Notes: generated from the sequence alone by a model not told the origin. Counted from the first letter of the stretch, positions 4,506 to 28,903 are shown. The stretch: DNA of 39,051 bases from an uncultured delta proteobacterium (GCA_903822335.1 CAIJOT010000220.1:1-39051); one strand, 5' to 3'. Made by a program: numbers and translations.

Positions 4506-4537
4506 AAGCAGTAAATAGTAAATAGTGAACTGTGAAT
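4506..4537. repeat. degenerate 7-bp tandem repeat (agtaaat agtaaat agtgaac tgtgaat)
   Basis: Direct reading; starts ~10 bp after the ligA stop and runs into the GTG start of the next gene. Confidence 0.75.
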
Positions 4538-10716: not shown

Positions 10717-11047
10717 GAAGGCTAATGTGAAGATTTTCATGTTTGATCCATCGAAAGACAAAGAACCCAAGTACAAAACGTATGAAGTTGAATGGAAAGG
10801 GCTTACTGTTCTTCAGGTGTTAAAGCACATCTATGAAAACCAAGACGCCGAAATAGCCTTTCGTTGTGGATGTAACGGTGTTGGTCCTGCCAGGTGCGGA
10901 GGATGTGTCGTAGAAGTTAATGGTGCTCCTGTTCTCGCCTGTCAAATGCTCGCTACCAAGGAGATGGTAATAAAACCTCATCGAAAGTTCACCATCATAA
11001 AGGACCTGGTGGTCGACTTCGAGAGAGAAAGGGGTACTGATGCTTAA
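10709..11047 (+). CDS. 2Fe-2S protein resembling the N-terminal domain of SdhB/FrdB; TTG start inferred
   Basis: KIFMFDPSKDKEPKYKTYEVEWKGLTVLQVLKHI...FRCGCNGVGPARCGGCVVEVNGAPVLACQM; aaaaggagg 7 nt upstream of TTG at 10709; overlaps the flavoprotein stop. Confidence 0.8.
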   Translation: MDEKANVKIFMFDPSKDKEPKYKTYEVEWKGLTVLQVLKHIYENQDAEIAFRCGCNGVGPARCGGCVVEVNGAPVLACQMLATKEMVIKPHRKFTIIKDLVVDFERERGTDA

Positions 11048-11246
11048 GATTATCGTAGATGAAGCAAAGTGCACTGGATGTGGCGACTGTGCTTTCATCT
11101 GCCCCGTAGGGGTATATGAGATACATAAGGGAAAGGCTATTCCTGTCGACGTCGAAAGCTGTTGTGGCAAAACATGCAGGCTTTGCGTTGAGTACTGCTG
11201 GAAGGATGCTATTCGACAAACAGAGCAGTGGCAAAACATCTTATAG
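11040..11246 (+). CDS. 4Fe-4S dicluster-type ferredoxin
   Basis: CTGCGDCAFICPVGVYEI...CCGKTCRLCVEYCWKDAI; overlaps the preceding CDS. Confidence 0.88.
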   Translation: MLKIIVDEAKCTGCGDCAFICPVGVYEIHKGKAIPVDVESCCGKTCRLCVEYCWKDAIRQTEQWQNIL

Positions 11247-11306
11247 GGTTTTGAGAGCATTGAGCAGGTTTTTAATTACAGAATATTTTTTTGGAGGACT
11301 AACATT

Positions 11307-12956
11307 ATGAATATGAGACAAGAGCTACTTCTCAGAACGAGGGTTCCAAAAGAGTATTGGCCGCCCGCTGATGCGTGGCCATCTATAAGGCCGACCCGTT
11401 TAGTGCCTTGGACGGAGGATTTTAACCTGGCAGAGTACCTCGTAGAACGGAATCTCGACGAAGGGAGAGAACAGAAAAGGGCTGTCTTTTTCCGGGACAA
11501 GTTCCTTAGTTATGGTCAACTTTCCCAAATGTCAAATAAACTTGGGAGTAGCCTGAAGAGACTTGGGATCAGGTCAGGTGACAGGGTTGCGATTAGAATG
11601 ACCAATAGCCCGGAATTCGTCATAAGCGATATGGCTATTCAGAAGATAGGCGCCATCTTGGTTCCCCTGTTTGTCTTGTTGAAGGCCCCCTCGATTGCCC
11701 ATATTCTTAAAGATGCAGAGGTTAGGGCAGTAATAGTCGATGCTGGTCTTATTGATGAGGTCGAGAAGGCAGGAATCGGTGATGGGGTGAATGTTATCGT
11801 TTATGGGGGAAACGAAGCACACACAAGTAAAAATTATCTTCTCTGGGAACGTCTTCTTGAAGAGGGTGACAAAAACGCAAAAAGCGAAAATATTTACTAC
11901 CATGATGCGGTAATGATCCATTATACGTCAGGGACAACAGGTTCCCCTAAAGGATGCATTCAGACACCCGTGGGTATATTGGGGCACGTGGCAGGGACTG
12001 TGAATCGTGCAGGTCTCAGGGAAGATGATATACTCTCAATTGCCCCACCCCTGCCTTTTGCTTATGGCCATGCTGCGGTCATGTATGCGCTTTGCGTCGG
12101 TGGTTCTTTTATCTTAATGGAGCGATTCAGTGTGGAAGAGTTCTTATCACAGGCAGAATGTTACCGGGCAACAGTCCTAGTCGGTGTTCCGACCACCTAC
12201 CGAATGATGTTGCCTGAAATACCAAAATACGACCTTAGTTCTGTCAGATTGCTAATGACGGCAGGTGAGACGTTCACAGAAGACCTGGAGTCTTCGCTTA
12301 AAAAAATCCTACCAAAGGTCAAATTTTTCAACTCTTACGGGTATACTGAGATGTGGAATTTTATTGGCACCATACCTGGTGTTCATTCCGCAACTTCGCT
12401 TGGCATACCTTATGATGGATATGAGGTAAAAATTGTCGACGAGCAGACCGGAAAAGAAGTGGGGGTCAGAGAGGTCGGGGTAATTAAGGCGTGTGGTGCG
12501 GCCGGTACCCTATACTGGAGGATTCCTGATAAACAAAGTCTCGTCGTAAGTAACGGTATGTTCTATTCCGGCGATCTCGCCTATCGAGATGAACAGGGGG
12601 TATTTTGGTTCAAGGCCAGGGACGTGGATATCATTAAGAGTTCCGGTTACCTGATTGCTCCCTACGAGATTGAGGGTGTACTCAGCAGCCATCCCGCGGT
12701 CGCAATTGTCGGCTGTATTGGTGTACCAGATCCTGTCAAAGGAGAAATAATAAAGGCGTTCGTAAAATTGAAGGCTGAATTTCAGCCTTCTGAGAAACTC
12801 ATTGCAGAATTGGAGCGGTTTGCTGAGGAAAAGCTTGAGAAGTACAAGGTTCCGAAAGCGTGGGAGTTCATCCAAGAGATGCCTGTAACGGCAAGTGGCA
12901 AAACAATGCGCCGGGGCTTGAAGGAACTGGAGCTAAAAAAGAAAACTGCGGGGTAA
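11307..12956 (+). CDS. AMP-dependent acyl-CoA ligase (benzoate/2-aminobenzoate-CoA ligase-like)
   Basis: IHYTSGTTGSPKGCIQTP (P-loop), NSYGYTEMWN, FYSGDLAYRDEQGVFWFKARDVDIIKSSGYLIAPYEIE, VTASGKTMRR. RBS ttggagg. Confidence 0.9.
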   Translation: MNMRQELLLRTRVPKEYWPPADAWPSIRPTRLVPWTEDFNLAEYLVERNLDEGREQKRAVFFRDKFLSYGQLSQMSNKLGSSLKRLGIRSGDRVAIRMTNSPEFVISDMAIQKIGAILVPLFVLLKAPSIAHILKDAEVRAVIVDAGLIDEVEKAGIGDGVNVIVYGGNEAHTSKNYLLWERLLEEGDKNAKSENIYYHDAVMIHYTSGTTGSPKGCIQTPVGILGHVAGTVNRAGLREDDILSIAPPLPFAYGHAAVMYALCVGGSFILMERFSVEEFLSQAECYRATVLVGVPTTYRMMLPEIPKYDLSSVRLLMTAGETFTEDLESSLKKILPKVKFFNSYGYTEMWNFIGTIPGVHSATSLGIPYDGYEVKIVDEQTGKEVGVREVGVIKACGAAGTLYWRIPDKQSLVVSNGMFYSGDLAYRDEQGVFWFKARDVDIIKSSGYLIAPYEIEGVLSSHPAVAIVGCIGVPDPVKGEIIKAFVKLKAEFQPSEKLIAELERFAEEKLEKYKVPKAWEFIQEMPVTASGKTMRRGLKELELKKKTAG

Positions 12957-13021
12957 TAAGGCGGCAAAAATCAATGTGCTTCATTCATGTGGAGATTATT
13001 AAAAGTTAGGAGGGTTAAAGT

Positions 13022-15139
13022 ATGAACGAGGATACTTCAATAAAGAGAGATTCAACAGTCAGGAAAACAATATGTTTCTTCTGCCCGCCCGGTTGTGGTA
13101 TCGACATCGAAGTGAAAGACAATAAGCCTGTAAGTGTTGTGGGCATGATGGAGAGCATTATAGGGCCGATCTGTATTAAGGGCGAAGTAATCCCAGAATG
13201 GTATGAACACGAACTGAAGAACAGGCTCCTGAACCCGCTAAAAAAGGTGAAAGGGGGATGGAAAAAGGTTGACTGGCACGACGCTTTTAATCTGATGATT
13301 GATAAACTTGGCCAAATAAAAGAGAAATACGGCGCTCGGGCCTTGGCCTCTTATATTGGTCAGGTTGAGAGCTTCCGAGATTTTGGATACGCAGCCAGGA
13401 GATTCTTTATTGGATTTGGGTCAGATTCATATTACTCTGTTGACTCGACATGTTATTTTGCAAAGGTAATAGCTGGCGAGACTACTTACGGCGGTTATGC
13501 ACCCCCAACCCTTGTTGGGACAAAGCTCATTACCACATGGGCAGCAAATCCCACAGGTTCTGTCCCCTTTGCAGCAGACAATATGTTTCTTATGAAGCAG
13601 CAGGGCACAAAACTGGTGGTTGTAGACCCCAGACGTACATTTTTGGCGAAAGCCGCGGATATGCATTTGCAGTTGCGGCCAGGCACGGATTGTGCCTTAG
13701 CGCTCGGTATTATTAACGTGATGATAGAGGAGCAGCTTTATGATAAAGAGTTTGTAGAAAAGTATACAACGGGGATTGCAGAGCTAGCCCAACACGTAAA
13801 AGCATATACGCCGGAAAAGGTCCAGGAAATAACATGGGTTTCTGCTGATCTAATAAGGGCTTACGCGAGACTCTACGCGACATCCAAACCAGCAGTGATA
13901 TTTCAAGGGAACTGTCTTGATTGTGTGGAGAACGGTTTCCAGGCATGCCGGGCTTTATGTTTCATGATAGCACTCTCGGGCAACCTTGATGTGCGTGGTG
14001 GGTCTACACTTATGCCCTTTTATATATTCAGCAAAATTGCCTTGGAAACGGTTCCGGAGGAGGAAAGACCGCCAAAGGGAGCGGGGGCAAAGACGTGGCC
14101 TCTCTTTTATGAACGTGTCGGCCAGCCGCCGATGGAAGGAATGATACGAGCTATTCTTGACGAAAGACCATATCCAATCAAAGCGCTCATTGTGCAGGCA
14201 GGCAATCCTGTTCTCACATGGGTAGATGCGAACCGGCAAAAAAGGGCATATGAGAAGCTTGACTTTATGGTGGTTCATGACCTTTTCATGACAGAAACTG
14301 CCGAACTGGCTGATCTTGTGCTCCCAGCCTGCACAACTTTCGAGCAGCAAGAAATCTATCAGTACGTAGGTAGACCCATGTTCGCTCTAATGAACAAGGT
14401 TATAGAACCTCCCGAGGGCTGCCTGGAAGACTGGAAATTGTGGTGGGAGTTGGCCTATAGGATGGGTTTTGGCGAAAAGTACTTGCCATGGAAGGATGTC
14501 ACGGAAATGCAGAATCAGCTATTGAGGGATTGTAAGCTTAGCATTCCTGTCACTGTCGATGACCTTAAAGCTAATCCTGCTGGTTTTTTTCACAAGAAAA
14601 GGGAATGGAAAAAATATGAAAAAGAGGGCTTTAATACACCCAGCGGAAAGTGCGAGTTCTATTCGCAAAAGCTAAAAGAGTTTGGACTTGATCCCCTACC
14701 CACTTTTTATGAGACTTCTGAAAGCCCTGTCTCTGCGCCACGGCTTTTTGAAAGGTTCCCGTTAATCTTGACCACCGGCACCCGTTCACTTCACTTTATG
14801 CATTCTCTTCATAGGAATACCCCCAGTTTAAGGGCAAGAGACTCGGAACCGCTGGTGGAGATCAATACACAGACTGCGCAAAAATTGGGGATAAAAAGTG
14901 GTGATATGGTCACTATTGAAACACAAAGAGGGATGGTGTTGATGAAGGCCGCAGCCACAGCCGACATTCATCCTATGGTAGTGTCCTTACCCCACGCGTG
15001 GGGCGGACTGGCAAATGGGAACCTACTTACAGGCGGCAATTATGATCCCGCATGGGGTGGGATGCCTGCAAGGGCACTTTTGTGTCGGGTAAGAAAGGCA
15101 GATCCCGTGCAATCCCCGGAAGTCAGGGTGGAGGGCTAA
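13022..15139 (+). CDS. molybdopterin (bis-PGD) oxidoreductase, DMSO-reductase family
   Basis: N-terminal Cys cluster (CFFCPPGCGIDIEV...GPICIKG), DSTCYFAKVIAGETTYGGY, LVVVDPRRTFLAKAADMHLQLRPGTDCALALGI, C-terminal LEINT..DMVTIETQRG-like molydop-binding domain. Confidence 0.9.
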   Translation: MNEDTSIKRDSTVRKTICFFCPPGCGIDIEVKDNKPVSVVGMMESIIGPICIKGEVIPEWYEHELKNRLLNPLKKVKGGWKKVDWHDAFNLMIDKLGQIKEKYGARALASYIGQVESFRDFGYAARRFFIGFGSDSYYSVDSTCYFAKVIAGETTYGGYAPPTLVGTKLITTWAANPTGSVPFAADNMFLMKQQGTKLVVVDPRRTFLAKAADMHLQLRPGTDCALALGIINVMIEEQLYDKEFVEKYTTGIAELAQHVKAYTPEKVQEITWVSADLIRAYARLYATSKPAVIFQGNCLDCVENGFQACRALCFMIALSGNLDVRGGSTLMPFYIFSKIALETVPEEERPPKGAGAKTWPLFYERVGQPPMEGMIRAILDERPYPIKALIVQAGNPVLTWVDANRQKRAYEKLDFMVVHDLFMTETAELADLVLPACTTFEQQEIYQYVGRPMFALMNKVIEPPEGCLEDWKLWWELAYRMGFGEKYLPWKDVTEMQNQLLRDCKLSIPVTVDDLKANPAGFFHKKREWKKYEKEGFNTPSGKCEFYSQKLKEFGLDPLPTFYETSESPVSAPRLFERFPLILTTGTRSLHFMHSLHRNTPSLRARDSEPLVEINTQTAQKLGIKSGDMVTIETQRGMVLMKAAATADIHPMVVSLPHAWGGLANGNLLTGGNYDPAWGGMPARALLCRVRKADPVQSPEVRVEG

Positions 15140-15180
15140 TAGTAGCTGTTTATGACTCAACTTGCGAGGTACCGGGAAGA

Positions 15181-15849
15181 ATGCAATTGTATAATGAGAT
15201 GGTGGCAGCGCTGAAGGAGTGGGATAAAGAGGCGTTTCTAAATGTGGTACAGTCAGGCCTTTCTCGGGGTCTAAGCGCTCTCGAGATTGCAAAGGAGGAA
15301 CTGCGTCCGTTAGTTAAAGAAATCTCTGAAAGATTCCAGCAGAATGACATTATTTTCCCGGAATTTCTGTTGATGAGCGATGCGATTCAGGCAGGATTTC
15401 AATTTCTCCTCCCCCTCATTAAGGAATCCACGATAAAGCAAAACAATCCGGAAAAGGTGGTTCTGGGTGTAATTGAAGGAGATATCCATGATATAGGCAA
15501 AAATATTGTGAAAATGGCACTCGAAGTTGAGGGCTTCGAAGTGATTGACTTGGGCTGTGATGTACCTGTTCATAAGTTTGTGGAAGCAGCCAGGGAAAGC
15601 GGGGCAAGAATCATTGCCAGCTCCAGCCTCATGACTCCCACGCTTACTAAGATGCAGGAACTGGAGAATGAATTGGGAAGGGCTGGCCTTAAAGGCAAGA
15701 TTAAGACGATCATAGGAGGGGAAGCGACGTCCCGCGAATTTGCAGAGAAGATAGGCGCTGATGCCTGGGGAGAAGAAGCAATAGAGGGTGTCGAGAAAAT
15801 CAAAGAACTGGTGGTGCAAATGAAAAGGGACTGCATAGAGATAGTATAG
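15181..15849 (+). CDS. methyltransferase-associated corrinoid (B12-binding) protein, MtbC/MttC-like
   Basis: GDIHDIGKNIV (DxHxxG), ASSSLMT (SxL), IIGGEA; N-terminal helical cap. ATG 15181 preferred over the listed 15052 start, which overlaps the Mo-enzyme gene. Confidence 0.9.
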   Translation: MQLYNEMVAALKEWDKEAFLNVVQSGLSRGLSALEIAKEELRPLVKEISERFQQNDIIFPEFLLMSDAIQAGFQFLLPLIKESTIKQNNPEKVVLGVIEGDIHDIGKNIVKMALEVEGFEVIDLGCDVPVHKFVEAARESGARIIASSSLMTPTLTKMQELENELGRAGLKGKIKTIIGGEATSREFAEKIGADAWGEEAIEGVEKIKELVVQMKRDCIEIV

Positions 15850-15916
15850 AAGTTCTGTTTGTAGCACGGCACTTTTCCGATAAGGATAAAGTGAACGAAA
15901 TAAAAGGAGGTAGACT

Positions 15917-16981
15917 ATGAATGGAAGGACAAGAAGTAGGCAAATCAGTCTATTAATTATGGTGGGTTTCATGTGTGTGTTTTTCTTTGCAAGCATGCAA
16001 TCGGTGGGAGCAGCTCCGGAAGCGCCTATGGTGCTCTCGTTTTCGAGCTGGGGAACTGATAAAGAGCCTGCGATTCCCGCATGGCTGCAGATGGATAAAG
16101 ACCTGCAGGAGGCTACTAAGGGTAAGGTAAAATTGAAAATTTACCACGGCGAGACATTGGGTAAGGCTAAAGAGCATTATGAAATAGCACTTAAGGGAAT
16201 AGCTGATATGGCTTATTTGAACATCTCATTCACACCTGGACGCTTCCCGATCACCGATCTGGTAACCTTTTCTTATGCGTCTTCAGCTGAGGCAATGACC
16301 GAAGGTTTGATGGAGTTGATGAAAAAGGGATATCTAAACAAAGAGTACGCAAATGTGAAACTGCTCTACGTTTTCACTGGAGGTCCTTGCCACCTCATGT
16401 GGAGGAAAGGGACCAAACCTGCAACCTCTCTTGTTGAATTAAAAGGGATGAAGATCAGAATTCCAGGGATGGCTGCGAGAGACTTAATCACAACCGCAGG
16501 AGCAACTCCTGTGAGTATCCCTATGCCGGAAGTCTACACTGCCCTCGAAAGGGGAGTGATAGATGGCGTATTCAGTACGGCAGAAGTGTTGGATACCTTC
16601 CGGTTGGCCCATGTATCTAATGAAATCACGAAAGTGAACTTCTTAACCTTCGCCTTCGCAACTTTGATGAACAAGAATACCTGGGAAAAACTACCAAAGG
16701 AAGCTAAGGACGTGCTTGAGAGGAATAGGGCTAAATATGCCCTTATGGCCAGTAGCCAACATGACCGTGATGATGTAAAAGCTATCGAGAATAACAAGCC
16801 GAAAATCTATAACCTGCCTGCATCCGACACGAAGAGGCTCAAAGAGATATTGGCGCCATCAGTAAAGGCCTATATTGAAAAATACGAGGCGGCTGGATAT
16901 CCGATGAAAAAGGCGGCGAAAGACTATTATATGTTTATGAAGCAAAAATACGGCGAGGAACCCTTTATTCTCGATTTCTAA
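15917..16981 (+). CDS. TRAP transporter solute-binding subunit DctP-like
   Basis: Signal peptide, IYHGETLGKAKEHYEIALKGIADMAYL, ELKGMKIRIPGMAARDLITTAGATPVSIPMPEVYTALERGVIDG; RBS aaaggaggt. Confidence 0.93.
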   Translation: MNGRTRSRQISLLIMVGFMCVFFFASMQSVGAAPEAPMVLSFSSWGTDKEPAIPAWLQMDKDLQEATKGKVKLKIYHGETLGKAKEHYEIALKGIADMAYLNISFTPGRFPITDLVTFSYASSAEAMTEGLMELMKKGYLNKEYANVKLLYVFTGGPCHLMWRKGTKPATSLVELKGMKIRIPGMAARDLITTAGATPVSIPMPEVYTALERGVIDGVFSTAEVLDTFRLAHVSNEITKVNFLTFAFATLMNKNTWEKLPKEAKDVLERNRAKYALMASSQHDRDDVKAIENNKPKIYNLPASDTKRLKEILAPSVKAYIEKYEAAGYPMKKAAKDYYMFMKQKYGEEPFILDF

Positions 16982-17017
16982 TAGAGAAAAGCACTCGCAG
17001 AGGGGAGGAAGCGAAAC

Positions 17018-17506
17018 ATGGAAGCTATGGAGAGATATATGAAAGGGCTCACAAACATCACCCTTATGTTAGGCCTATTTGTAATGGCTGGTTTAATGTT
17101 CCTCACAGCTTTTGATGTCATAGGACGATCTTTTGGGCACTCTGTTCCCGGCGCCTACCAGATCAGCGAGATCATGGAAGTGTGGGTAATCTGCCTTGCA
17201 TGGCCCGTTACTGAGTTGGTAAAAGGGCATGTTGAGATGGACATAGTCTTTACGCGCCTTTCCCGCCCAACTCAACATAGAATAGAGATTCTTACCAACC
17301 TTCTTACGCTGGGAATCTTCTGCCTTGTAATCTGGCAAGGTATAACACTTGTGAAAAGGAATTTCGAGCTGGGTGAGCTTATCCCGATTCTCCAAATCCC
17401 CCTTTATCCATTCCAGGTTGTCATTTCAATCGCTGCGGCAGTAAACTGTCTGGTATTGATCGTCCGGTTGTTAGGGTTCTTCGGATATAAGTCCAAGGGC
17501 GTATAG
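17018..17506 (+). CDS. TRAP transporter small permease DctQ-like
   Basis: Four hydrophobic segments, FDVIGRSFGHSVPGAYQISEIMEVWV...GHVEMDIVFTRL; position between DctP and DctM. Confidence 0.9.
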   Translation: MEAMERYMKGLTNITLMLGLFVMAGLMFLTAFDVIGRSFGHSVPGAYQISEIMEVWVICLAWPVTELVKGHVEMDIVFTRLSRPTQHRIEILTNLLTLGIFCLVIWQGITLVKRNFELGELIPILQIPLYPFQVVISIAAAVNCLVLIVRLLGFFGYKSKGV

Positions 17507-17580
17507 CCAAAATCTGCTTAAGGGTCGTGGCTGAACATACTTAAACACGTACCCTTGAGTTTACTCGGAGGTAGAGTATC

Positions 17581-18882
17581 ATGTCTGATATACTGATTAT
17601 TGGAATCACCATGTTGACCTTTGTTGTGCTTCTTGTCCTTAGAGTGCAAATTGCCATTGTCTTTGCCGTATCGGGACTCGTAGGTGTTACATTGATGAGA
17701 GGATTCGATTCAGGGGTTGCTGCACTTGGGCTTGCAGTGTATTCCGAAAGCTCAAATTATATTCTCCTGTCTATTCCTCTCTTCATTGTTATGGGTAATT
17801 TCCTTTTCCACAGCGGGATAAGCAGCCTGCTATACGAATTCGCCTTTACGTGGTCAGGGGGAGTAAGAGGGTCGCTTGCCTATGCAACCATCATCGCCTG
17901 CACGTTTTTCGGAGCCTGTACCGGCTCAAGTATGGCTGCAGTGGGGACCATTGGTCCGGTAGCGCTGCGGGAGATGGAGAAGCACAATTACAAATCGAGT
18001 CTGGCTTACGGCTGCATAACCTCTGCCTCGAGTCTTGGCATAATGATCCCCCCGAGCCTCGCATTCATTGTGTACGGCTATATATGCTCGGTACCCATAG
18101 GGCCCCTATTCATTGCCGGAATATTCCCCGGAATCTTGACTGCCTTTATGCTGATGGGCCTTGTGCTCTATATGGTTAACAGGAATCCAAGTCTGGCTCC
18201 GAAAAGCGAGCTGAGATTTACCTTGAAGGAAAAATTGGTGAGCACGAGCAAGATATGGTGGATAGTTGTCCTCTTCGTGGTGATTGTAGGCGGATTACTG
18301 GTCGGCATCTTTACTGCTACAGAGGCGGCCGGGGCAGGTGCGTTCACGACATTTCTCATACTGGTGTTTACGAGAAGAATGAGCTGGAAAGTCTTTAGGG
18401 CTTCGCTCGTGGATACCGCCAAGACTTCCTGCATGATATTCACCATCATCATAGGCGCCAAGGTCTTCAATACCTTTCTCGGCTTGAGCGGTCTTCCACA
18501 GACTTTTGCCGAATATATGGTTGCGCTCCCCGTATCCCGATATTGGGTCCTGGCCCTTATACTTTTTCTTTACGTCCCGCTTGGCTGTTTCATAGACTCG
18601 GTACCCATGTTTTTTCTTACCTTGCCCGTTGTCTTCCCTGTGATCGACAAGCTGGGATTCGACCCTCTGCTGTTTGGTGTTCTGGTCACCTTGATGGCGC
18701 AGATATCTCTGTTGACGCCGCCGGTGGGTATGAACGTGTATGTGCTGAGCGGCGTCTCCGGTAGGCCCCTCACGGAGTGTTTTGCCGGATCGATACCCTT
18801 TCTCATCCCCATGTGTCTGACTGTTGTCCTTTTGGTGTTATTCCCGCAGATAACGCTGTTCCTGCCGGCTCTGATGAAATGA
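17581..18882 (+). CDS. TRAP transporter large permease DctM-like
   Basis: LLSIPLFIVMGNFLFHSG, FFGACTGSSMAAVGTIGPVALREMEKHNYKSSLAYGCITSASSLGIMIPPSLAFIVYG. Confidence 0.95.
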   Translation: MSDILIIGITMLTFVVLLVLRVQIAIVFAVSGLVGVTLMRGFDSGVAALGLAVYSESSNYILLSIPLFIVMGNFLFHSGISSLLYEFAFTWSGGVRGSLAYATIIACTFFGACTGSSMAAVGTIGPVALREMEKHNYKSSLAYGCITSASSLGIMIPPSLAFIVYGYICSVPIGPLFIAGIFPGILTAFMLMGLVLYMVNRNPSLAPKSELRFTLKEKLVSTSKIWWIVVLFVVIVGGLLVGIFTATEAAGAGAFTTFLILVFTRRMSWKVFRASLVDTAKTSCMIFTIIIGAKVFNTFLGLSGLPQTFAEYMVALPVSRYWVLALILFLYVPLGCFIDSVPMFFLTLPVVFPVIDKLGFDPLLFGVLVTLMAQISLLTPPVGMNVYVLSGVSGRPLTECFAGSIPFLIPMCLTVVLLVLFPQITLFLPALMK

Positions 18883-20744
18883 ATGAAAGTAATGTAACGT
18901 TCCTACCCGCTGGCAAACACATCATAGCACCGCCGGGCAGCAGGGTAATGGATCTGGCAAAGATGCTGAATATCAATATTGCCTTTACATGCGGGGGAAA
19001 AGGGAGGTGTGGCCGCTGCAAGGTCTTCGTGAGAAAAGGTATGGAGACCTTGGGACCATTGACCGAAACGGAGAAGAACCTACTATCGCCGGAAGAAATA
19101 AGGAGCGGATTGCGACTCGGATGTGCTATCTGGTCTCCCCTTGCCGTCGATCTCGTAATAGACGTCCCTGAGGACTCGACCGAACACCTGAAGATCCATA
19201 CAGGTGGTACCAGTGTAATCGTTGAACCAGACCCGTCGGTGAAGAGATATGTAATCGAGCGTTCTCTATTCAGGTCTGGAAGTCTTTTACCATATGAGAA
19301 GCTGATCCTTGACAAATTGGAGAAAGAGCATGGGTTGGCACAGGTATCATTCGGCTACGAAGCGCTACAGCAGCTATCAAAGAGCATCAGCAATTCAGAG
19401 GAGGGCGAAGCAGTCGGACTCACGATATGGAACGACAGAGAGATTATTTCTGTGCAAAGGGAAGGAGGAAGGGGCATTTATGGGCTTGCAGTTGACGTAG
19501 GAACGACAACTGTTGTCTGCTACCTTCTCAATTTGAACGATGGGAAGATTTTATCGATTTCGTCTTCAGGCAACCCCCAGGCGAATATGGGCGATGACCT
19601 GATGACACGCATATCGGCCGTCATAGAGAATGAAGAAAATTTGTTTAGGTTGCAATCTTCTGTAGTTGAATCCATTAATCGACTGATCAAGGATTGTTGT
19701 GTCGCAACAGGGATAGCGCCAGAGGATATCTACGAGTGCTGTTGCGCGGGCAACACCTGCATGCAACACCTCTTTCTCGGTCTGTCACCCCAGTCGCTCG
19801 GTTTCTCCCCATACAGGCCTGTGACAAAGCAGGGGATTACGATTACTGCCAATGAACTACACCCTCCTCTCCTGATGAATCAGAAAGGGAAAATATATGT
19901 ATTGCCCTCCATCGCAGGTTTTGTGGGTGGAGATAATGTGAGCGTGCAGTTGATTGTTAATCATCTTGCTCCCAACAACGGTATAAGATTGATATTAGAT
20001 ATTGGCACAAATACCGAAATGGCACTTGCAGACAGTCAGGGTGTGATCGTCTGCTCGTGCGCTTCCGGACCGGCTTTTGAGGGCATGCACATTACCCACG
20101 GTGTGAGAGGTATCATCGGGGCCATCGAGCGTGTCCTGATGACACCTGGGTCGATTGAGGTGAAATGTGAAACCATCGGCAACAAAAAACCCATCGGCAT
20201 ATGTGGCTCTGGCTTAGTAGATGCAATAGCTGGTCTTATACAGACCGGATTGTTGCACCGAAATGGAGTCCTCAAAGCGGACTCAGCGACTCCGAGGCTG
20301 AGGGTGGGTGCCAGCGGGGAAAGGGAGTTTGTGTTGGTCTGGAAAGAGGAGACAGACCTGGGAAAGGACATCGTGATTGGTCAGCGAGATGTTATAGAGT
20401 TTCAGAAAGCGAAGGCAGCGATTCAGGCTGCCTGCAAAATTCTGATGCGCAGGAAAAAAATAACCGAAAATCAAATCGGCAAAATTTTCATTGCAGGCGC
20501 CTTCGGCCAGTATATAGATCCCGATAATGCAATCGTAACAGGTATGTTGCCATCGGTACCTTCGGAGAGAATACAAGCAATCGGAAATGCAGCAGGGAGT
20601 GGCGCCAGGATGGCACTGATTTCACGAGAGTCAAGGAGAGAAGCCGAAGCGATCGCAGAAAAGTCAGAGTACATTGAGTTATCAGCTGACCCCGAGTTTT
20701 CACGCGAGTTTATGCAATCCATGTTCTTTTCCTTACCACAATGA
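18879..20744 (+). CDS. reductive activator of corrinoid enzymes (RACE/RamA-like; N-terminal 2Fe-2S ferredoxin + ASKHA/DUF4445)
   Basis: FTCGGKGRCGRCKVFV...LGCAIW; GLAVDVGTTTVVCYLLNL; VGGDNVSVQ; LILDIGTNTEMAL; CASGPAFEG; IFIAGAFGQYID. ATGA overlap with dctM fixes the start at 18879 rather than 18777. Confidence 0.92.
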   Translation: MNESNVTFLPAGKHIIAPPGSRVMDLAKMLNINIAFTCGGKGRCGRCKVFVRKGMETLGPLTETEKNLLSPEEIRSGLRLGCAIWSPLAVDLVIDVPEDSTEHLKIHTGGTSVIVEPDPSVKRYVIERSLFRSGSLLPYEKLILDKLEKEHGLAQVSFGYEALQQLSKSISNSEEGEAVGLTIWNDREIISVQREGGRGIYGLAVDVGTTTVVCYLLNLNDGKILSISSSGNPQANMGDDLMTRISAVIENEENLFRLQSSVVESINRLIKDCCVATGIAPEDIYECCCAGNTCMQHLFLGLSPQSLGFSPYRPVTKQGITITANELHPPLLMNQKGKIYVLPSIAGFVGGDNVSVQLIVNHLAPNNGIRLILDIGTNTEMALADSQGVIVCSCASGPAFEGMHITHGVRGIIGAIERVLMTPGSIEVKCETIGNKKPIGICGSGLVDAIAGLIQTGLLHRNGVLKADSATPRLRVGASGEREFVLVWKEETDLGKDIVIGQRDVIEFQKAKAAIQAACKILMRRKKITENQIGKIFIAGAFGQYIDPDNAIVTGMLPSVPSERIQAIGNAAGSGARMALISRESRREAEAIAEKSEYIELSADPEFSREFMQSMFFSLPQ

Positions 20745-20936: not shown

Positions 20937-22325
20937 CTAAGAGGGGGGATCAACAAAAACACTCAACCTCTTGAAACAAGAGGTATCCCTAACCCTCATT
21001 TTCGAAACAAATTTCACCTCAACGAACGTTCTGCTTCCAAGGGCATCTCCTTTAATAAGCGAATCCTGCTTTATAACCTTTGCGATCTCCTTCACGGCAG
21101 ACCGGGTAGCTTGTCTCCTGTTTACAATCTCTACAAGAAAGATGAGTGTTGTCTTATCTTGCTCTTTTTTGACTTCAAGCTGGTAGTCGAGAACCATAGG
21201 GATTGAAAAGAGGCTCTCATCAAAGGTAAAAGGGTATATCTCGCTCGTGCCAAGTTTGATCCCGGTGCAGGTCCTTTTGGTTATCATGTCGATCCTCTTG
21301 AGGATTGAACCGCATGCACACTTTTTTACAATTATTCTTGCAAGATCGCGCGTTCTATACCTGATGAGAGGCATACCTTCTCTTTTAAGAGAGGTTATGA
21401 CGAGTTCACCTTCCTCACCATCGACAACGGGTTGACCTGTTTGAGGATTAATCACCTCCACGAGATAGTCGCTTTCATGGATGTGGTACCCTTTACCAGA
21501 GTGGCACCCCATTCCTGCATTGAAACCCATCTCTGTGAGACCGTAGTGGCAAAACACCTTGGCTTTCCACGCATCCTCAAGTGCGTTTCTCACGGCTTCT
21601 GGAACAGGTTCGCCAGTAATCACGATTGTTTCTATCCCCATCTCTCGGAGCTTACATCTTTCACTGGCGAGCTTGGTTAGGCGGTGGAGGTAAAAAGAGT
21701 ACCCCACCAGAGCGGTGCTTCCATGTTCCGCTATGGCTCTAACCTGTTTCATGATATCTGATGTGATGCCGGTTACCACTGGCGTGGCGCCCGCCTTTTC
21801 CACACCCCTTGCAAGTACATCGGCCTGTCCCATTATAGTCTCGCCTGGAAGCATTATTTGAACTACGGCCTTTTTCTCCCCCAGAACTGCTTTTGTATTA
21901 GCTGAAAGCAAGTCAACGATACGTCGAAGATCGCCTTCCGTAAAGAAGATCCTTTTCTTTTCACCAGTTGTACCCGAGGTTGCGAGACTAACAATGCGAG
22001 ATATTTCCCCCATTGGCACACATAAGAACCGATACGGGTCTTTGATGATGTCCTCGGGTTCAGTAAAGGGAATCCGTCGAAGATCGGCCGGGGTTCGTAC
22101 AAGGGACGGAAGAACACAGTGTTTTGAGAAAAGGTCACGGTAAAAAGGGCTTTTCTTAATCACGTAGGCTACCATTTGGCGCAGCTTAAAAATCTGAAAT
22201 CTCTCCAGGACAACTCTATTGAATTGCTCCTGATTTATCCTTAGAATGTGTCGGAGGCTGATATCGCTTGTTGCTTCCCTCTTAATGTGTCCCCAGATCC
22301 ACTCGTCCAGATAATTTGAATTCAT
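20937..22325 (-). CDS. PaaK-like AMP-dependent CoA ligase (resembles the family annotated DVU_1553-like, from memory)
   Basis: VSLATSGTTGEKKRIFFTEGDL, CHYGLTEMGFNAGMGCHSGKGYHIHESDYLVEVINPQTGQPVVDGEEGELVITSLKREGMPLIRYRTRDLARI. Confidence 0.85.
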   Translation of the reverse strand: MNSNYLDEWIWGHIKREATSDISLRHILRINQEQFNRVVLERFQIFKLRQMVAYVIKKSPFYRDLFSKHCVLPSLVRTPADLRRIPFTEPEDIIKDPYRFLCVPMGEISRIVSLATSGTTGEKKRIFFTEGDLRRIVDLLSANTKAVLGEKKAVVQIMLPGETIMGQADVLARGVEKAGATPVVTGITSDIMKQVRAIAEHGSTALVGYSFYLHRLTKLASERCKLREMGIETIVITGEPVPEAVRNALEDAWKAKVFCHYGLTEMGFNAGMGCHSGKGYHIHESDYLVEVINPQTGQPVVDGEEGELVITSLKREGMPLIRYRTRDLARIIVKKCACGSILKRIDMITKRTCTGIKLGTSEIYPFTFDESLFSIPMVLDYQLEVKKEQDKTTLIFLVEIVNRRQATRSAVKEIAKVIKQDSLIKGDALGSRTFVEVKFVSKMRVRDTSCFKRLSVFVDPPS

Positions 22326-23647
22326 CGGTGATACAGCCTTTTACCTCTAATGCTGGTTAGATAGTAGGCGCAGAAAGGCACAAGACTCCCATCGGTGGCG
22401 ACGTGAATGCAGCACCCCTCCAACCTCTCGAGATCAATATTCCAAACGTCCTGAAAAGGCATCCCGGAAATCGTAAGAGAATGCGCCTGCACCCAATTGA
22501 GAAGTTCATCGGGGATTGAATCCATTCCACATGAACAGGGCTGGCATGAGCATCTCCTGGGGGTAGGGGACCAATACGTCTCAAGAAAGCGCCTAACTGC
22601 CGCCGCAGGCTTGGAGGTACTCCTGACCACTGGGCTGAAAGCAGAAATGAGGGCACCATCATCCCCAAGTACAAAGAAACCGGCAAATGCACAATGAGCG
22701 TCTTTACTTCTCCGGGGTTTGAAATCAGATATCCGAACCTCTCCATCTGTTTGTTTTTCCAGGGCATTAAGCACTTCCGGCAGGGTTATCCTCTCTCTGT
22801 TATCGGGTACTTGAGGATATCTTCCGAAGTAACTAATAGGTTGAAAATGTACCCCTCTGACAACTGGCATCCATTGCTTTGCGAACTGGACAATACGGCC
22901 TATCTGGCTATCATTGATACCAGGCACAATGGTTGGAACCAGTACTACTGCCAGTCCCACATTGGAACAGTTCTCTATCACCTTAATTTTCGTATTGATT
23001 AAAGGACCCCCTCTTGTGGCATAGTAAACATCGTCCGTTACGCCATCGAACTGTAGATAAAGTATCTTTACCCCATTCTCCTTTAGTTTTAACAGGTACC
23101 TCGTGTCCTCAGCCAACCTTACCCCGTTGGTGTTGATCTGAATCATCTCGAATCCCAGATCGCTTGCAGCTGCTGCTATTTCCGGGAGGTCATCCCTGAG
23201 GGTAGGTTCGCCCCCGCTAAACTGTAAAGGCGGGGTTGTTCCTGTTGCAAGGATAGTTCTATAAAGACGTTTGATGGCTTCGATGTCCGGTTCAAAAGCG
23301 GGGACTTCGGGTGAGCTGGAAAAACAGATTGGGCACCTCATATTGCACCGGTGAGTGACTTCTATCAGAGCCACACAGATACCGCCCGTGTGGGCCAAAC
23401 ATGGACCACAATCGTAGGGACAACCCTTCTTGATCTCGGACAAATCCCCTCCTGGTCCGCCCCCATTCTCCGCGTATCTATCCCATATGAGGAAGGAATC
23501 TCCACTGCCTCTCCATAGCACTGTTTTAAAGTTTCCATGATCAAGACAGGTTTTCGCCAGATAAACGCCATCTTCCTCCTCCACAATCTCTGCATCAATC
23601 TTCCCCAAGCAGACAGGACAGAGGCTTTGCGTTTTTCTGAGAACCAT
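22322..23647 (-). CDS. radical SAM protein (MoaA/Tes-like architecture; possibly TrsS-like)
   Basis: CPVCLGKIDAEIVEEEDGVYLAKTCLDHGNF N-terminal ribbon; CVALIEVTHRCNMRCPICFSSS (CxxxCxxC); SGGEPTLRDD; C-terminal GCCIHVATDGSLVPFCAYYLT. 4-bp overlap with the ligase. Confidence 0.88.
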   Translation of the reverse strand: MVLRKTQSLCPVCLGKIDAEIVEEEDGVYLAKTCLDHGNFKTVLWRGSGDSFLIWDRYAENGGGPGGDLSEIKKGCPYDCGPCLAHTGGICVALIEVTHRCNMRCPICFSSSPEVPAFEPDIEAIKRLYRTILATGTTPPLQFSGGEPTLRDDLPEIAAAASDLGFEMIQINTNGVRLAEDTRYLLKLKENGVKILYLQFDGVTDDVYYATRGGPLINTKIKVIENCSNVGLAVVLVPTIVPGINDSQIGRIVQFAKQWMPVVRGVHFQPISYFGRYPQVPDNRERITLPEVLNALEKQTDGEVRISDFKPRRSKDAHCAFAGFFVLGDDGALISAFSPVVRSTSKPAAAVRRFLETYWSPTPRRCSCQPCSCGMDSIPDELLNWVQAHSLTISGMPFQDVWNIDLERLEGCCIHVATDGSLVPFCAYYLTSIRGKRLYHR

Positions 23648-23675
23648 CTTTATTACCTCGCTGAAAAATATGCCT

Positions 23676-24425
23676 TTATTTTGTACCCGCCATGATACAA
23701 TACCCTAGCGTCTCATTCCGAAAAGCCCTCGTTATCTCTCTGTAACTATCATTACTACATGCACCAGAGCAGAGTCCCGGTAGTTTGTCCAGAAAGGTAT
23801 TGATGCTACCGAAACGGAATATGGTATCAAAAAAAAGCTCCTTAAGTTTATCTGTGTGATCCTCGAAGTGGACGCTATGGAAGCCGTTGCCAGTCAATAA
23901 AGCCCTATAAGCTGCCTCTGGTTCGGCGCCGTTGATACAGGGAAATAGAACTCTGCTTCCAAAAAATGGGGTTTGCTTCTTTAGATAGAAATCGGCAATA
24001 GCGATTCGACCACCTTTGCGAAGAACTCTCCAGAACTCTCGAGCGACTTTTCCTTTGTCAGTGAACACCGAGAAGCTGCATTCACATAAGATTACATCGA
24101 AAGAATGGTCTAAAAAGGGAAAGGTTTCCGCTTCACCTACAAGAAAAAACACCTCATCTTGTAACCCTTCATCAGCCGCCTTGGTCTTCGCATAATTTAC
24201 CATTTTAGACGATAAATCCATGCCGATTACTTGGCACCCATATTTTCGATATAAAAAAAGGGCACTCCCCCCTTTTCCACTTGCTACATCAAGCACTCTG
24301 CATTCTCTTTCGACCCGCGTAAGTTCTGCTATCCTCTTTGTTAAACCAGTTTCTCCCGGGTGTAGAGTTTCCCCCCACACATCCGCCTCATAAAACTTAA
24401 CTGCAACCTTGCTATCCTCGGACAT
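23676..24425 (-). CDS. class I SAM-dependent methyltransferase (UbiE-like; possibly TrsM-like)
   Basis: RVLDVASGKGGSALFLYRKYGCQVIGMDLSSKMV; VILCECSFSVFTDKGKVAREFWRVLRKGGRIAIADFY. Confidence 0.85.
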   Translation of the reverse strand: MSEDSKVAVKFYEADVWGETLHPGETGLTKRIAELTRVERECRVLDVASGKGGSALFLYRKYGCQVIGMDLSSKMVNYAKTKAADEGLQDEVFFLVGEAETFPFLDHSFDVILCECSFSVFTDKGKVAREFWRVLRKGGRIAIADFYLKKQTPFFGSRVLFPCINGAEPEAAYRALLTGNGFHSVHFEDHTDKLKELFFDTIFRFGSINTFLDKLPGLCSGACSNDSYREITRAFRNETLGYCIMAGTK

Positions 24426-24466
24426 TATAATAAATCCCGCTAATTAAGTTTCAATTTCTTTCCTTT

Positions 24467-25183
24467 CTAAAGCCCTACCATAAAAGCTACTGTACCGATT
24501 CCACAACAAAAGGCTATAGTAGCAGTTGAAGCAACATAGCTAAGCGAAGGTCTTCTCGCAACCTCGGGGGCAAACCTCGATTGGAGCTTCACCCCTGCTA
24601 AATAACCTAATGGAAGGAAAATAGCCGCAGCAGACATCCATACAACTCCACCTATGGCAAGGAAGTCAGGCAGCGGCCTTGCATACCCCAAGTCAGCACA
24701 GATAGGCTTGTCCACCCCATAGGTAGTGGATAGGATGAATAGTGTGGAAGCTAATAAGGCGGATAACACTCCCACCCCTATGCGAGTGGGGATACTCCTC
24801 TCCAGCCTCTTCATTGAAAAGCGTGCCACCAGAGCTAAGAAAATGGACTCTATGATAGCGGCCGCGGCAGAAGCTACTATTGGTGAATAATAAGTCGAAC
24901 GAACAGAGGTGGGTAAGAATGGAACACTAAGCCAGCAAAACGCAGCAGCTACTAAACCTATGCCTACTAACATGGCAGGCTTTTTATAAATAGCCAAAGC
25001 TGATCCCATCACAAAGGAGCCAAAGGTGGCGGCCATGAGAAAGCAGGGACATAAGTGATATAGGAAAAGGTCACCCCAATGAGAATGTAAAGCACCCAAA
25101 AAAGTAATGGCTTCAAGGAACCCCCAAATACAGCCGAAAGTTACTATCCCCAAAAAAATTCGAAAAACCTGTCTTTTTTCCAT
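24467..25183 (-). CDS. polytopic membrane protein of unknown function
   Basis: About six hydrophobic segments; RBS aaggaggtaagat upstream of ATG; no family recognised. Confidence 0.75.
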   Translation of the reverse strand: MEKRQVFRIFLGIVTFGCIWGFLEAITFLGALHSHWGDLFLYHLCPCFLMAATFGSFVMGSALAIYKKPAMLVGIGLVAAAFCWLSVPFLPTSVRSTYYSPIVASAAAAIIESIFLALVARFSMKRLERSIPTRIGVGVLSALLASTLFILSTTYGVDKPICADLGYARPLPDFLAIGGVVWMSAAAIFLPLGYLAGVKLQSRFAPEVARRPSLSYVASTATIAFCCGIGTVAFMVGL

Positions 25184-25212
25184 ATTATCTTACCTCCTTA
25201 CTACTTAAGATA

Positions 25213-25416
25213 TTATTTATCCTCTATCTGTTCTTCGATACTGCGTAACTTGCGCCCCATCTCTTCGGAGACGAATACGGCCCCACATTTTGGGCATCGA
25301 GTACCTTTAACAGGTTTTTTGAACTGAAGATAACTGAACTGAACTTCACCTTCCGTGACCTTCTCGTTGCACTTAAAACAGTACCATTCTTCCCATGCTT
25401 CTCCCATCTCTGCCAT
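25213..25416 (-). CDS. small zinc-ribbon-like/redox protein (resembles DVU_1557-like family, from memory)
   Basis: WYCFKCNEKVTEGEVQFSYLQFKKPVKGTRCPKCGAVFVSEEM: two CxxC pairs; tight operon spacing. Confidence 0.75.
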   Translation of the reverse strand: MAEMGEAWEEWYCFKCNEKVTEGEVQFSYLQFKKPVKGTRCPKCGAVFVSEEMGRKLRSIEEQIEDK

Positions 25417-25430
25417 ACACCTATACCTCC

Positions 25431-25673
25431 TCAGCTTAGTTCAGATTTATACCAGTACGCAGAATGCACAGTGTACTGAGATTCTTGTACTGAATAAAGT
25501 ACGTAGTAGGTTGCTTGCCCAAGCCTTTCATACGCCAAGTATCTTCCGGTCTCCGGATGGTAAAACTTCTGACCTGTATTCTCACCATGTAGTATAACTT
25601 CGATCAATTCTTCGTCACGGATGTTCCTTGACTCTAACAAAGCCGTGATTTCCTTGCTTTTCTTGATCTCCAT
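25431..25673 (-). CDS. small protein of unknown function
   Basis: MEIKKSKEITALLESRNIRDEELIEVILHGENTGQKFYHPETGRYLAYERLGQATYYVLY...; internal ATG at 25673 has SD aaaggag and avoids overlap with the upstream gene. Confidence 0.7.
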   Translation of the reverse strand: MEIKKSKEITALLESRNIRDEELIEVILHGENTGQKFYHPETGRYLAYERLGQATYYVLYSVQESQYTVHSAYWYKSELS

Positions 25674-25698
25674 TTTTTCTCCTTTCCCTGGATTGAGC

Positions 25699-26847
25699 TT
25701 ATCTCCCAACCGGCTTCTCTGATTTGGTATTTTGAAGTAGCTCCAAAAGTAAGATTTTCGTTTGTGACTGCGCTTCTCTCCTTTTCTTACCCGTTTTGGT
25801 AACTTGGTGCCCGACTTCTTTCCAGTTTGGGTTGAAGATTAGATCCAAGAGGTGAAGGCTGGTTTTATTCATCGCCAATGCTTCACGACATCCGGCACAA
25901 TAGCTGACTATATCAAAATGGAATTCGTCAGTCCGTCTCTTTGTTATATTACCAGCCAAGTCAAAATCTATAAAAGGCACCATACCACCCATACCACAGC
26001 ACCGCGCTTTTTCCCCGGAATATTCGACCTCCTCAATCTCATAACCTATCTCCCGGATCAAAAACCTGACACTTTCTCGTAAACCCGTTAGATTACGTGC
26101 CGTACAGCTATCATGAATCGAGAAAATCCTACGTTCACCCTTTACGCCTTCGGGGAGCCCCAGTTCCACCATGACCTCGTAAATCGATTTGAAGTGTATA
26201 TGTGGGAGATTCTCTGTCATGTTCCGGTAACAATCGGGACAGGCTACGATCATTTCGCTTGCACCCAGTTTTTTCATGTCGTTCTCGATATCAGTCAAAA
26301 TTTGCCTGAACACTGCCTGTTCCCCAAGAAAATGATTAGGCCCTCCGCAGCAACCTAGGATGATTCCTGTATCCGTCAATCTATTCAGGAGATATTCGTA
26401 ACTTTTAACAACAAGGCCCGGGGCATAGCCTGACAAGTTGCATCCCGGGAAAAACACTCTTTCACACTTACCCGTTCTTGGGTCTGAATGAATGAGGTGA
26501 AAGGCATCCGAGAGGACGAATTCTTGAGTTTTCTTCACCGCTTGATGTTCAGGAAGGGGTGCTTTTCCGTCGCTTACAAGTTCCTTGCGTGCAGCCATGC
26601 ATAGCTTTCCAGTGTCGATTCCTTCAGGACAGACCTTCCCACAGAGACCACAAATATTGCAGGAGTATGCAATCTGAGATTCCCCTATAAGCTGATTTTG
26701 GAAGATTTTCGCAAGTTGATTTGGAAAACCATACTTCTTAAGGAATTCACAGTCATTTACACAAGAACCGCACTCGCTGCAATTCTTAAGTACTTGGTCT
26801 GCAATCAGATGGATATTTTCCATATACTCCATATTACGAGCACTCAT
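25699..26847 (-). CDS. dicluster 4Fe-4S/CCG-domain protein (HdrD/GlpC-like)
   Basis: CSECGSCVNDC...CNICGLCGKVCPEGI; CCGGPNHF and CCGMGGMVPF CCG motifs. Start at 26847 (MSARNMEYMEN) supported by aaggag 6 nt upstream. Confidence 0.88.
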   Translation of the reverse strand: MSARNMEYMENIHLIADQVLKNCSECGSCVNDCEFLKKYGFPNQLAKIFQNQLIGESQIAYSCNICGLCGKVCPEGIDTGKLCMAARKELVSDGKAPLPEHQAVKKTQEFVLSDAFHLIHSDPRTGKCERVFFPGCNLSGYAPGLVVKSYEYLLNRLTDTGIILGCCGGPNHFLGEQAVFRQILTDIENDMKKLGASEMIVACPDCYRNMTENLPHIHFKSIYEVMVELGLPEGVKGERRIFSIHDSCTARNLTGLRESVRFLIREIGYEIEEVEYSGEKARCCGMGGMVPFIDFDLAGNITKRRTDEFHFDIVSYCAGCREALAMNKTSLHLLDLIFNPNWKEVGHQVTKTGKKRREAQSQTKILLLELLQNTKSEKPVGR

Positions 26848-26934
26848 CCAGAACTCCTTAGTACCTACCAAGTTAACAGTGGAACTTACTTATACTATTT
26901 CTCACTTTCACAGAATTGTTTCAATAGGAAGATT

Positions 26935-27135: not shown

Positions 27136-27783
27136 TCAAATGATTCCGTACCGCTGTGCGGCAAGGATCGCTTCAATTCTATTGTGGCAGTCGAGTTTTT
27201 CATAGATTTTTGCAAGGTGGTTCTTAACAGTATATTCACTTAGTTTCAGGTTTACAGCGATCTCTTTGTTTAAATATGCTTTGGCCACAAGTTGCAGGAT
27301 TTCGACTTCCCGTCTTGTCAGCTTATCGCTCACTAAGTTCACTGGCGTATTGCTCTTTCTCGCAAAATCTCTCAGGATTTTCCGCACAGTCTTGTATTCC
27401 AGCCTAGTCTCCCCTTTTATTGAAGAGTCTATTATATCAAATAACTCCCCCAGGGACGAATCTTTCAAAACGTAACCGCATGCGCCCTTCTCCAGAGCCC
27501 GAATCAGATATTCTTCCCTCTTGTGCATTGTCAGCATTACAATTATGACATCGGGCAGAATTGCCTTCAAAGTACCAAGGACTTCAAAGCCATCTCCCCC
27601 GGGCATCTCTATATCCAAAAGCACAATATCAGGTTTTTCTCGCTGAGCTGTTGCGATTGCCCCTCGCGCGTCATTAGCGACGCCGACTACCTGCAAATGG
27701 TTCTGAAACTTAATTAGTTGACGGAGACCTTCACAAAATAGTTTATGATCATCTACGATCAAGACTTTATACTTTCTTATCAT
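27136..27783 (-). CDS. NarL/LuxR-family response regulator
   Basis: KVLIVDDHKLFCEGLRQLI, DIVLLDIEMPGGDGFEVL, C-terminal LTRREVEILQLVAKAYLNKEIAVNLKLSEYTVKNHLAKIYEKL. Confidence 0.95.
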   Translation of the reverse strand: MIRKYKVLIVDDHKLFCEGLRQLIKFQNHLQVVGVANDARGAIATAQREKPDIVLLDIEMPGGDGFEVLGTLKAILPDVIIVMLTMHKREEYLIRALEKGACGYVLKDSSLGELFDIIDSSIKGETRLEYKTVRKILRDFARKSNTPVNLVSDKLTRREVEILQLVAKAYLNKEIAVNLKLSEYTVKNHLAKIYEKLDCHNRIEAILAAQRYGII

Positions 27784-28903
27784 CAGACGGTATATCTATC
27801 TCTATCCTGGTTCCTTGACCAAAGGCGGTTTGGATATGGAACAAGCCATCGAAACCCCTTGTCTGCTCACTCACGCTCAACAGCCCAAAGGTAGCAGAGG
27901 AAGGCAGGTTTGCAAGCGTTTGTGGCAGATCAAAACCAATGCCATCATCCTCTATAGCGAGATGAATCCGCTCATCTTCAGTCGATATCTCTATTCGTAC
28001 GTGGTTCGCATTTGCATGTTTCCTCACATTTGTCATCAATTCATGGATCATCCGGTAAATGCTCACTTGTGTGTCTTTGTACCACTTGTTTTTGTCAAGG
28101 GCTTCGGGTGCGACAATATCAACGAATACCCCAGTTTCTCTCTGGAAGCCGGCCACATAGTTGTGCAGTGCAGCTATTAGCCCTTGTTCACGGAGGGAAG
28201 GTGGATAGAGATCATAGTTAAGATCCCTGATCTTCCGGATTGTCTCAGTGATAACCTCCTGCAAGCGAAGAAGCTCCTGTGTTAACTTCTTTCTCTGGTT
28301 TGGCTTTATCAGTTTCTCTACAATTTGAGTCCGCACGAGGGCGGTTGCAAGGGATTGAAGAACGCCATCATGTAGTACTATGGCTAACTCTTGTCGTTCG
28401 TTCTCATAAGCTTTCATCGTTTTCTTCAAAAGTTTTTGAATGATATTTTTTTGAAACCTGTGACTTACAATAGTTGTAATCCACAAATCCTCGTAGGAGA
28501 GATAGATCAGCTTGTCGAGAAAAGGTGCAATACGAGCATACGGAAAGGTAGAGCGGACCCCTCTGTTAAAGATGTGCTCCTTGACGGTGTCAGTGAACAA
28601 CTCAAGTGTGCGGATCAGTCTGCTTGACTTCAAGTCTTGAGAACAAAAGGGTATGATCTGAACCGCATAAGTTGTGTCCTCCAGCGAAGCAGAATTGATG
28701 TATTTTCCGGTCCTCAGGTATGAGACTTGTCTGTTCAGAATATCTGAAAATCTGGCTCGGATGATCGCGATAAGCCACTCAGGCATGGGCTGACTACTCT
28801 GTCTTGGCCAAAAACAGACAATAAGCTTGCTACAGAATTCATCCAGAATTACCTCCTTCTCAGTATCAATTAGTTTAGCTATCTTTTCCCTAAGCTTTTG
28901 CAT
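27767..28903 (-). CDS. sensor histidine kinase, HisKA_3 type, no obvious transmembrane segment
   Basis: LAIVLHDGVLQSLATALVRTQ H-box; HATPase motifs MIHELMTNVRKHANA, LAIEDDGIGFD, GLLSVSEQTRGF; overlaps the RR gene. Confidence 0.92.
   Translation of the reverse strand: MQKLREKIAKLIDTEKEVILDEFCSKLIVCFWPRQSSQPMPEWLIAIIRARFSDILNRQVSYLRTGKYINSASLEDTTYAVQIIPFCSQDLKSSRLIRTLELFTDTVKEHIFNRGVRSTFPYARIAPFLDKLIYLSYEDLWITTIVSHRFQKNIIQKLLKKTMKAYENERQELAIVLHDGVLQSLATALVRTQIVEKLIKPNQRKKLTQELLRLQEVITETIRKIRDLNYDLYPPSLREQGLIAALHNYVAGFQRETGVFVDIVAPEALDKNKWYKDTQVSIYRMIHELMTNVRKHANANHVRIEISTEDERIHLAIEDDGIGFDLPQTLANLPSSATFGLLSVSEQTRGFDGLFHIQTAFGQGTRIEIDIPSDDKKV

Follow-up and report, generated by a model that had tools for sequence, protein, structure and literature searches.

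We analysed a group of seven genes on the minus strand (20937-26847) of a 39,051-nucleotide stretch of DNA from an uncultured delta proteobacterium (GCA_903822335.1, CAIJOT010000220.1:1-39051; the whole stretch is referred to below as the window). The group is a form of the TrsS cassette that goes with corrinoid genes and lacks MOP, the aldehyde oxidoreductase. Such cassettes are known, though uncharacterised, and usually reside in the mop operon. Its radical S-adenosylmethionine (SAM) enzyme, TrsS, is by sequence comparison a paralogue of the archaeal tetraether lipid synthase Tes, and we tentatively read the cassette as a pathway to a small organic cofactor.

The TrsS cassette and the mop operon

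All seven open reading frames (ORFs) listed in the preliminary description are present. They are separated by short gaps, the small genes are preceded by ribosome-binding-like sequence, and the TrsS and ligase ORFs are joined by an ATGA overlap at 22322-22325; gene calls were mechanical, and the window genome (G000; G and L numbers denote the genomes and loci of our sets) is an assembly of 342 contigs. Family membership was judged by the cut-offs of NCBIfam models, supplemented by Pfam. Scores over the cut-off were obtained for TrsS (22322-23647; NF045646, 533 bits against 490), a DVU_1556-type SAM-dependent methyltransferase (23676-24425; 160.3 against 155) and a DVU_1553-type PaaK-like AMP-forming ligase (20937-22325; 336.5 against 300). 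The ligase contains the P-loop, YGxTE and YRTRD motifs and a conserved C-terminal Lys452, and resembles the phenylacetate-CoA ligase PaaK (PDB 4r1l) in its AMP-forming ligase motifs over residues 35-401, but it belongs to a family of its own (DVU_1553). The methyltransferase likewise carries its sequence motifs. The ORF at 25213-25416 encodes a small redox protein that has two CxxC motifs; it scored just under the DVU_1557 cut-off (57.5 bits against 60) but over that of Pfam DUF7479 (66.5 against 27).

The HdrD-like dicluster protein (25699-26847, with a possible alternative TTG start at 26871) and a separate small protein of 92 amino acids (d92, 25431-25673) cover consecutive parts of one 759-position model, NF045663, i.e. 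positions 310-671 and 675-753 respectively. The score was 326.7 bits against a full-length cut-off of 530, with positions 310-753 present but split over two genes. The dicluster protein has no N-terminal NAD(P)H/FAD domain. It retains a pair of 4Fe-4S motifs and a pair of CCG motifs, both of the latter complete. It shares these motifs with thiol:fumarate reductase TfrAB and HdrD-type CCG proteins, and a TfrA-like flavoprotein is encoded in the operon adjoining the cassette, but it scores only 56.8 bits against the TfrB model, whose cut-off is 385. G036, too, has a dicluster protein without the NAD(P)H/FAD domain (L045:12138-13238), whereas the closely related proteins of L044 and L047 have it, which suggests loss of this domain on more than one occasion. 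The remaining ORF (24467-25183) encodes a membrane protein with no NCBIfam or Pfam assignment. It had been counted as a member of the cassette, but when searched for across the class it was found in only two of 46 genomes (the window genome and G041); it is lineage-specific, lying inside the cassette yet outside the conserved set.

Conservation was assessed in 80 loci with TrsS relatives from named genomes together with loci of the window's class, a similarity-ranked sample in which several loci stop at contig edges. Within 9 kb of the 92 TrsS genes we found the ligase in 83 cases, the d92 domain in 77, the dicluster protein in 76, the methyltransferase in 73, a C-GCAxxG-C-C (CGC) protein in 69, the DVU_1557 protein in 60 and MOP in 46, along with genes for an NTP transferase (35), an XdhC-type protein (32), a CobC-like protein (30) and a MoeA-like protein (19). 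This conservation is far beyond chance. The set is kept across phyla, the common gene order being MoeA-like, MOP, dicluster, 1557, methyltransferase, CGC, TrsS, ligase, XdhC, NTP transferase and phosphatase; the elements of the electron branch (dicluster, d92 and 1557) are present in nearly all variants, and the neighbours of the core differ, being MOP, acetylene-hydratase-like enzymes or corrinoid operons. The preliminary description had proposed model searches and a comparison with other genomes as checks; the searches returned no unrelated families, and the cassette is conserved elsewhere.

The closest known system is the mop, or DVU_1551-1559-type, operon of Desulfovibrio (models NF045646, NF045663, NF045645, NF045667, NF045666 and NF045668), of which only MOP has an assigned function. 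A first pass over 120 Desulfovibrionia genomes gave scores above the cut-off for TrsS in 84 and for MOP in 87, and when the discordant genomes were rechecked TrsS was found in three more (G082, G136 and G149), where it had been scored as separate segments of one frame. The corrected counts are 87 genomes for each protein, with both in 86, TrsS only in one, MOP only in one and neither in 32, these last not having been rechecked (Fisher p about 8e-27, which is not an independent-sample probability because the genomes are related). TrsS and MOP lie within 10 kb of each other in 76 of 84 genomes. The first 309 residues of the MOP of G092 are 100% identical to the chain in PDB 1sij/1vlb, from which we infer that G092 is D. 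gigas, and its operon runs MoeA, MOP, dicluster, 1557, methyltransferase, CGC, TrsS, ligase, XdhC and phosphatase. The crystallised MOP therefore belongs to a conserved TrsS operon. Judging by the literature that we searched, the other proteins of this operon appear to be uncharacterised: no functional work was found on TrsS, on DVU1551-1558 or on the gene combination, and DVU1559 was mentioned only in proteomics tables.

In the operon of the crystallised MOP, the gene for the NAD(P)H/FAD-dicluster protein directly follows mop (L142:7585-9873). MOP has no flavin domain of its own and flavodoxin has been proposed as its partner (PMC10223205); the flavin/NAD(P)-dicluster protein is a candidate alternative for this missing partner.

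A MOP-less branch linked to a corrinoid operon

The window cassette resembles the mop operon in having TrsS, the DVU_1556 methyltransferase, the DVU_1557 protein, the DVU_1553 ligase and the dicluster protein in one cluster, but differs from it in the split dicluster protein without the NAD(P)H/FAD domain, in the position of its TrsS on a separate branch of the tree and in its tie to a corrinoid operon. It differs also in gene content. MOP (NF045668) is absent from the window genome, which is 98% complete (no match at E 1e-150); no DVU_1551-, XdhC-, DVU_1555- or MOP-type gene was found within 9 kb of TrsS, the search for the first three being confined to this neighbourhood, and no MoeA- or CobC-type gene adjoins the cassette. 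The likeness to the Desulfovibrio DVU_155x/TrsS set that had been noted is thus borne out by TrsS, the methyltransferase and the ligase, but does not extend to a DVU_1551-type gene or to any TrsM-named model; the identity of that set as the mop operon, the paralogy with Tes and the MOP-less branch are additions to the preliminary description.

In a maximum-likelihood tree of 89 TrsS sequences plus Tes, the window TrsS falls in a 10-member clade (support 96/87) in which no member has a MOP neighbour. All MOP-linked TrsS fall in a separate group of 78 members (support 100/98). With Tes as reference the two are sister groups, with the root uncertain owing to the long Tes and L121 branches, and the cassette may therefore predate its association with MOP.

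The linked operon (8989-20744, plus strand) is convergent with the cassette, as had been described. Its members include a TfrA-like flavoprotein, an acyl-CoA ligase, a TRAP transporter, an acetylene-hydratase-like Mo/W enzyme (13022-15139; closest solved structure acetylene hydratase, 2e7z), a corrinoid protein (15052-15849) and a RACo-type corrinoid activator (18777-20744); no obvious corrinoid methyltransferase was seen beside the last two at 15052-20744. Relatives of the Mo/W enzyme, at 53-55%, occur in G034-36 and G043. The cassette is convergent with the RACo/TRAP genes in the window genome and G041. In G034, G035 and G036 a single strand carries TRAP, TfrA, d92, 1557, methyltransferase, TrsS, ligase, dicluster, corrinoid protein and RACo, and in G043 a single strand carries corrinoid, RACo, an IclR-like regulator (called by sequence inspection), d92, 1557 and methyltransferase, at which point the contig ends. 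The cassette is therefore linked to corrinoid/RACo genes in six genomes (the window genome and five others). These represent two families and four genera, and the linkage takes three gene orders, four of the cases being on the same strand. This corrinoid-linked version offers a MOP-free system in which to seek the product of the cassette. In a separate group (L038, L039 and L041), TrsS is joined to other acetylene-hydratase-like enzymes and to FmdE-like proteins.

TrsS and the tetraether lipid synthase Tes

TrsS and Tes (MJ0619) are 38.7% identical over 460 residues (E 5e-100). The AF2 model of TrsS (pLDDT 86.5) has as its best structural match the Tes (GDGT-MAS) structure 7tol, with a TM-score of 0.81 on query length, and the two proteins agree in fold, domain order and all metal ligands. 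These ligands, taken from the Tes structure paper (PMC9433317), are all kept in the window TrsS and are conserved in 91-92 of 92 aligned TrsS sequences: the rubredoxin-type iron ligands C10, C13, C34 and H37, the N-cluster ligands C76, C80, C83 and H86, the SAM cluster ligands C101, C105 and C108, and M396, the labile Met ligand of the C-terminal cluster. The Tes-aligned cysteines of the C-terminal domain, C319 (94/94), C412 and C426, are equally conserved but were not assigned individually as C-cluster ligands. TrsS differs from Tes in being shorter, in having a variable C-terminal half and other gene neighbours, in an added Cys91, which is invariant in TrsS where Tes has Ile, and in its score against the Tes model NF045702, which is below the cut-off (362 bits against 450). 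A pterin-methylase label derived from the Pfam HMPTM zinc ribbon was dropped for want of corroboration in the Tes structure paper.

At position 314, 48 of 94 TrsS sequences have Cys, one (L066) has an in-frame TGA and the window TrsS has Ser. The window gene contains no in-frame TGA that could encode selenocysteine; its terminal TGA was considered and rejected as such a codon, being an ordinary stop within the ATGA overlap. The selenium site behind the name of the TrsS family thus appears, from these alignments, to be optional. In L066, the TrsS locus of an Acidobacteria metagenome-assembled genome (MAG), the TGA (PPGUEEAHC) stands where about half of the TrsS proteins have Cys, and is probably selenocysteine.

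The similarity between the two enzymes also bears on surveys of lipid biomarkers. Bacterial 'Tes homologues' have been counted as possible makers of tetraether biomarkers at E < 1e-50 with >30% identity or at E < 1e-30 with >=30% identity (PMC8941075, PMC11868695). The comparison of TrsS with MJ0619 is well inside these thresholds, which were themselves applied with other Tes queries. Because TrsS passes them while its neighbours indicate molybdenum, corrinoid and redox metabolism, the sulfate reducers and Chloroflexota flagged by Tes-homologue searches may be false positives.

Proposed role of the cassette

We favour, with a probability of about 0.45, the reading that the cassette makes a small organic cofactor at low flux, using radical chemistry to form a bond, and includes an iron-sulfur electron branch. 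The ligase would activate a carboxylic-acid building block, the methyltransferase would methylate it and TrsS would form a C-C (or C-S) bond at an unactivated carbon, which is its most likely reaction because the Tes site is kept; Tes itself joins two carbons via a carbon-sulfur intermediate on an auxiliary iron-sulfur cluster (PMC9433317). Electrons would reach TrsS through the HdrD-like protein, d92 and the DVU_1557 protein, or these three would exchange electrons with the completed cofactor. The cofactor itself would be required in catalytic amounts and would serve the MOP aldehyde oxidoreductase module in most anaerobes and the adjoining corrinoid/Mo/TRAP operon in the window lineage. The family assignments, the conservation of the core genes, the Tes ligands and the occurrence of the same core beside quite different neighbours all point in this direction, although the small-molecule biosynthesis suggested in the preliminary description is still something that we infer. 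Two observations weigh against it. Firstly, the setting of the cassette in the class, with a TRAP transporter, an IclR-type regulator and an acyl-CoA ligase, is also compatible with direct action on a substrate. Secondly, in an archaeal locus from a Methanolobus MAG (L121:7306-15238) a divergent TrsS occurs with the ligase and a d92/1557 protein, next to genes for a URO-D-type protein, an ABC transporter and a further radical SAM protein, and no methyltransferase was seen there, so methylation may be non-essential.

The strongest competitor, possible but about half as probable, is direct catabolism, in which an acid imported by TRAP would be activated by the ligase and transformed by TrsS together with the methyltransferase and the corrinoid protein. 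In the class, the cassette shares its strand or neighbourhood with the TRAP transporter, the TfrA-like flavoprotein, the corrinoid protein, RACo and the IclR-type regulator, and in L039/L041 it follows acyl-CoA catabolic genes. However, two SAM-consuming enzymes and an AMP-forming ligase would be costly for bulk flux, which is why we prefer low-flux synthesis, and the mop operon has the same core without a transporter or corrinoid protein.

It is less likely again that TrsS is a true tetraether-type lipid synthase joining fatty or isoprenoid chains in bacterial membranes. The identity to Tes and the complete set of metal ligands would suit such an enzyme, and bacterial Tes homologues have been proposed as makers of membrane-spanning lipids (PMC8941075), but TrsS reaches the cut-off of its own model and not that of Tes, has the invariant Cys91 and is found not beside lipid genes but in molybdenum, corrinoid and redox operons. 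A more speculative form of the cofactor reading, to which we give little weight, is that TrsS would halt Tes-like chemistry at the carbon-sulfur stage and put sulfur from the auxiliary cluster into a small acid, giving a new thiol electron carrier whose disulfide the HdrD-like protein would cycle. If so, the cassette would both build and recycle a cofactor for MOP-type and corrinoid-type anaerobic pathways.

A role for TrsS and its partners in modifying or inserting the molybdenum/tungsten cofactor of an adjoining enzyme is very unlikely. A molybdoenzyme is often adjacent (MOP in half of the 92 loci, acetylene-hydratase-like enzymes in others), and MoeA-, MocA- and XdhC-type genes also occur in the mop operon, but these cofactor-maturation genes accompany MOP, and none lies near the window cassette. 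Moreover, the cofactor in crystals of D. gigas MOP has been defined, at up to 1.28 A resolution, as ordinary molybdopterin cytosine dinucleotide (PMC10223205); as this MOP comes from a TrsS operon, alteration of the cofactor by TrsS is argued against, and the idea was set aside as the main explanation once the crystallised mop proved to be followed by the cassette. Least likely of all is that the cassette and the corrinoid operon are functionally unrelated chance neighbours, as their opposite strands in the window might suggest, because the linkage recurs across genera and families.

Directly upstream of the cassette and on the same strand lie genes for a two-component response regulator and histidine kinase (27136-28903), which are possible candidates for its regulators. 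At L052:2247-11392, 2-hydroxyacyl-CoA-dehydratase-type and BcrAD/BadFG-type genes are flanked by two TrsS-ligase pairs. By-products of SAM could possibly be salvaged by two further genes of the window at 4532-6480, some 14 kb away from the cassette: one is methylthioadenosine-phosphorylase-like, and the other encodes an amidohydrolase that is related to the deoxyadenosine/S-adenosylhomocysteine deaminases.

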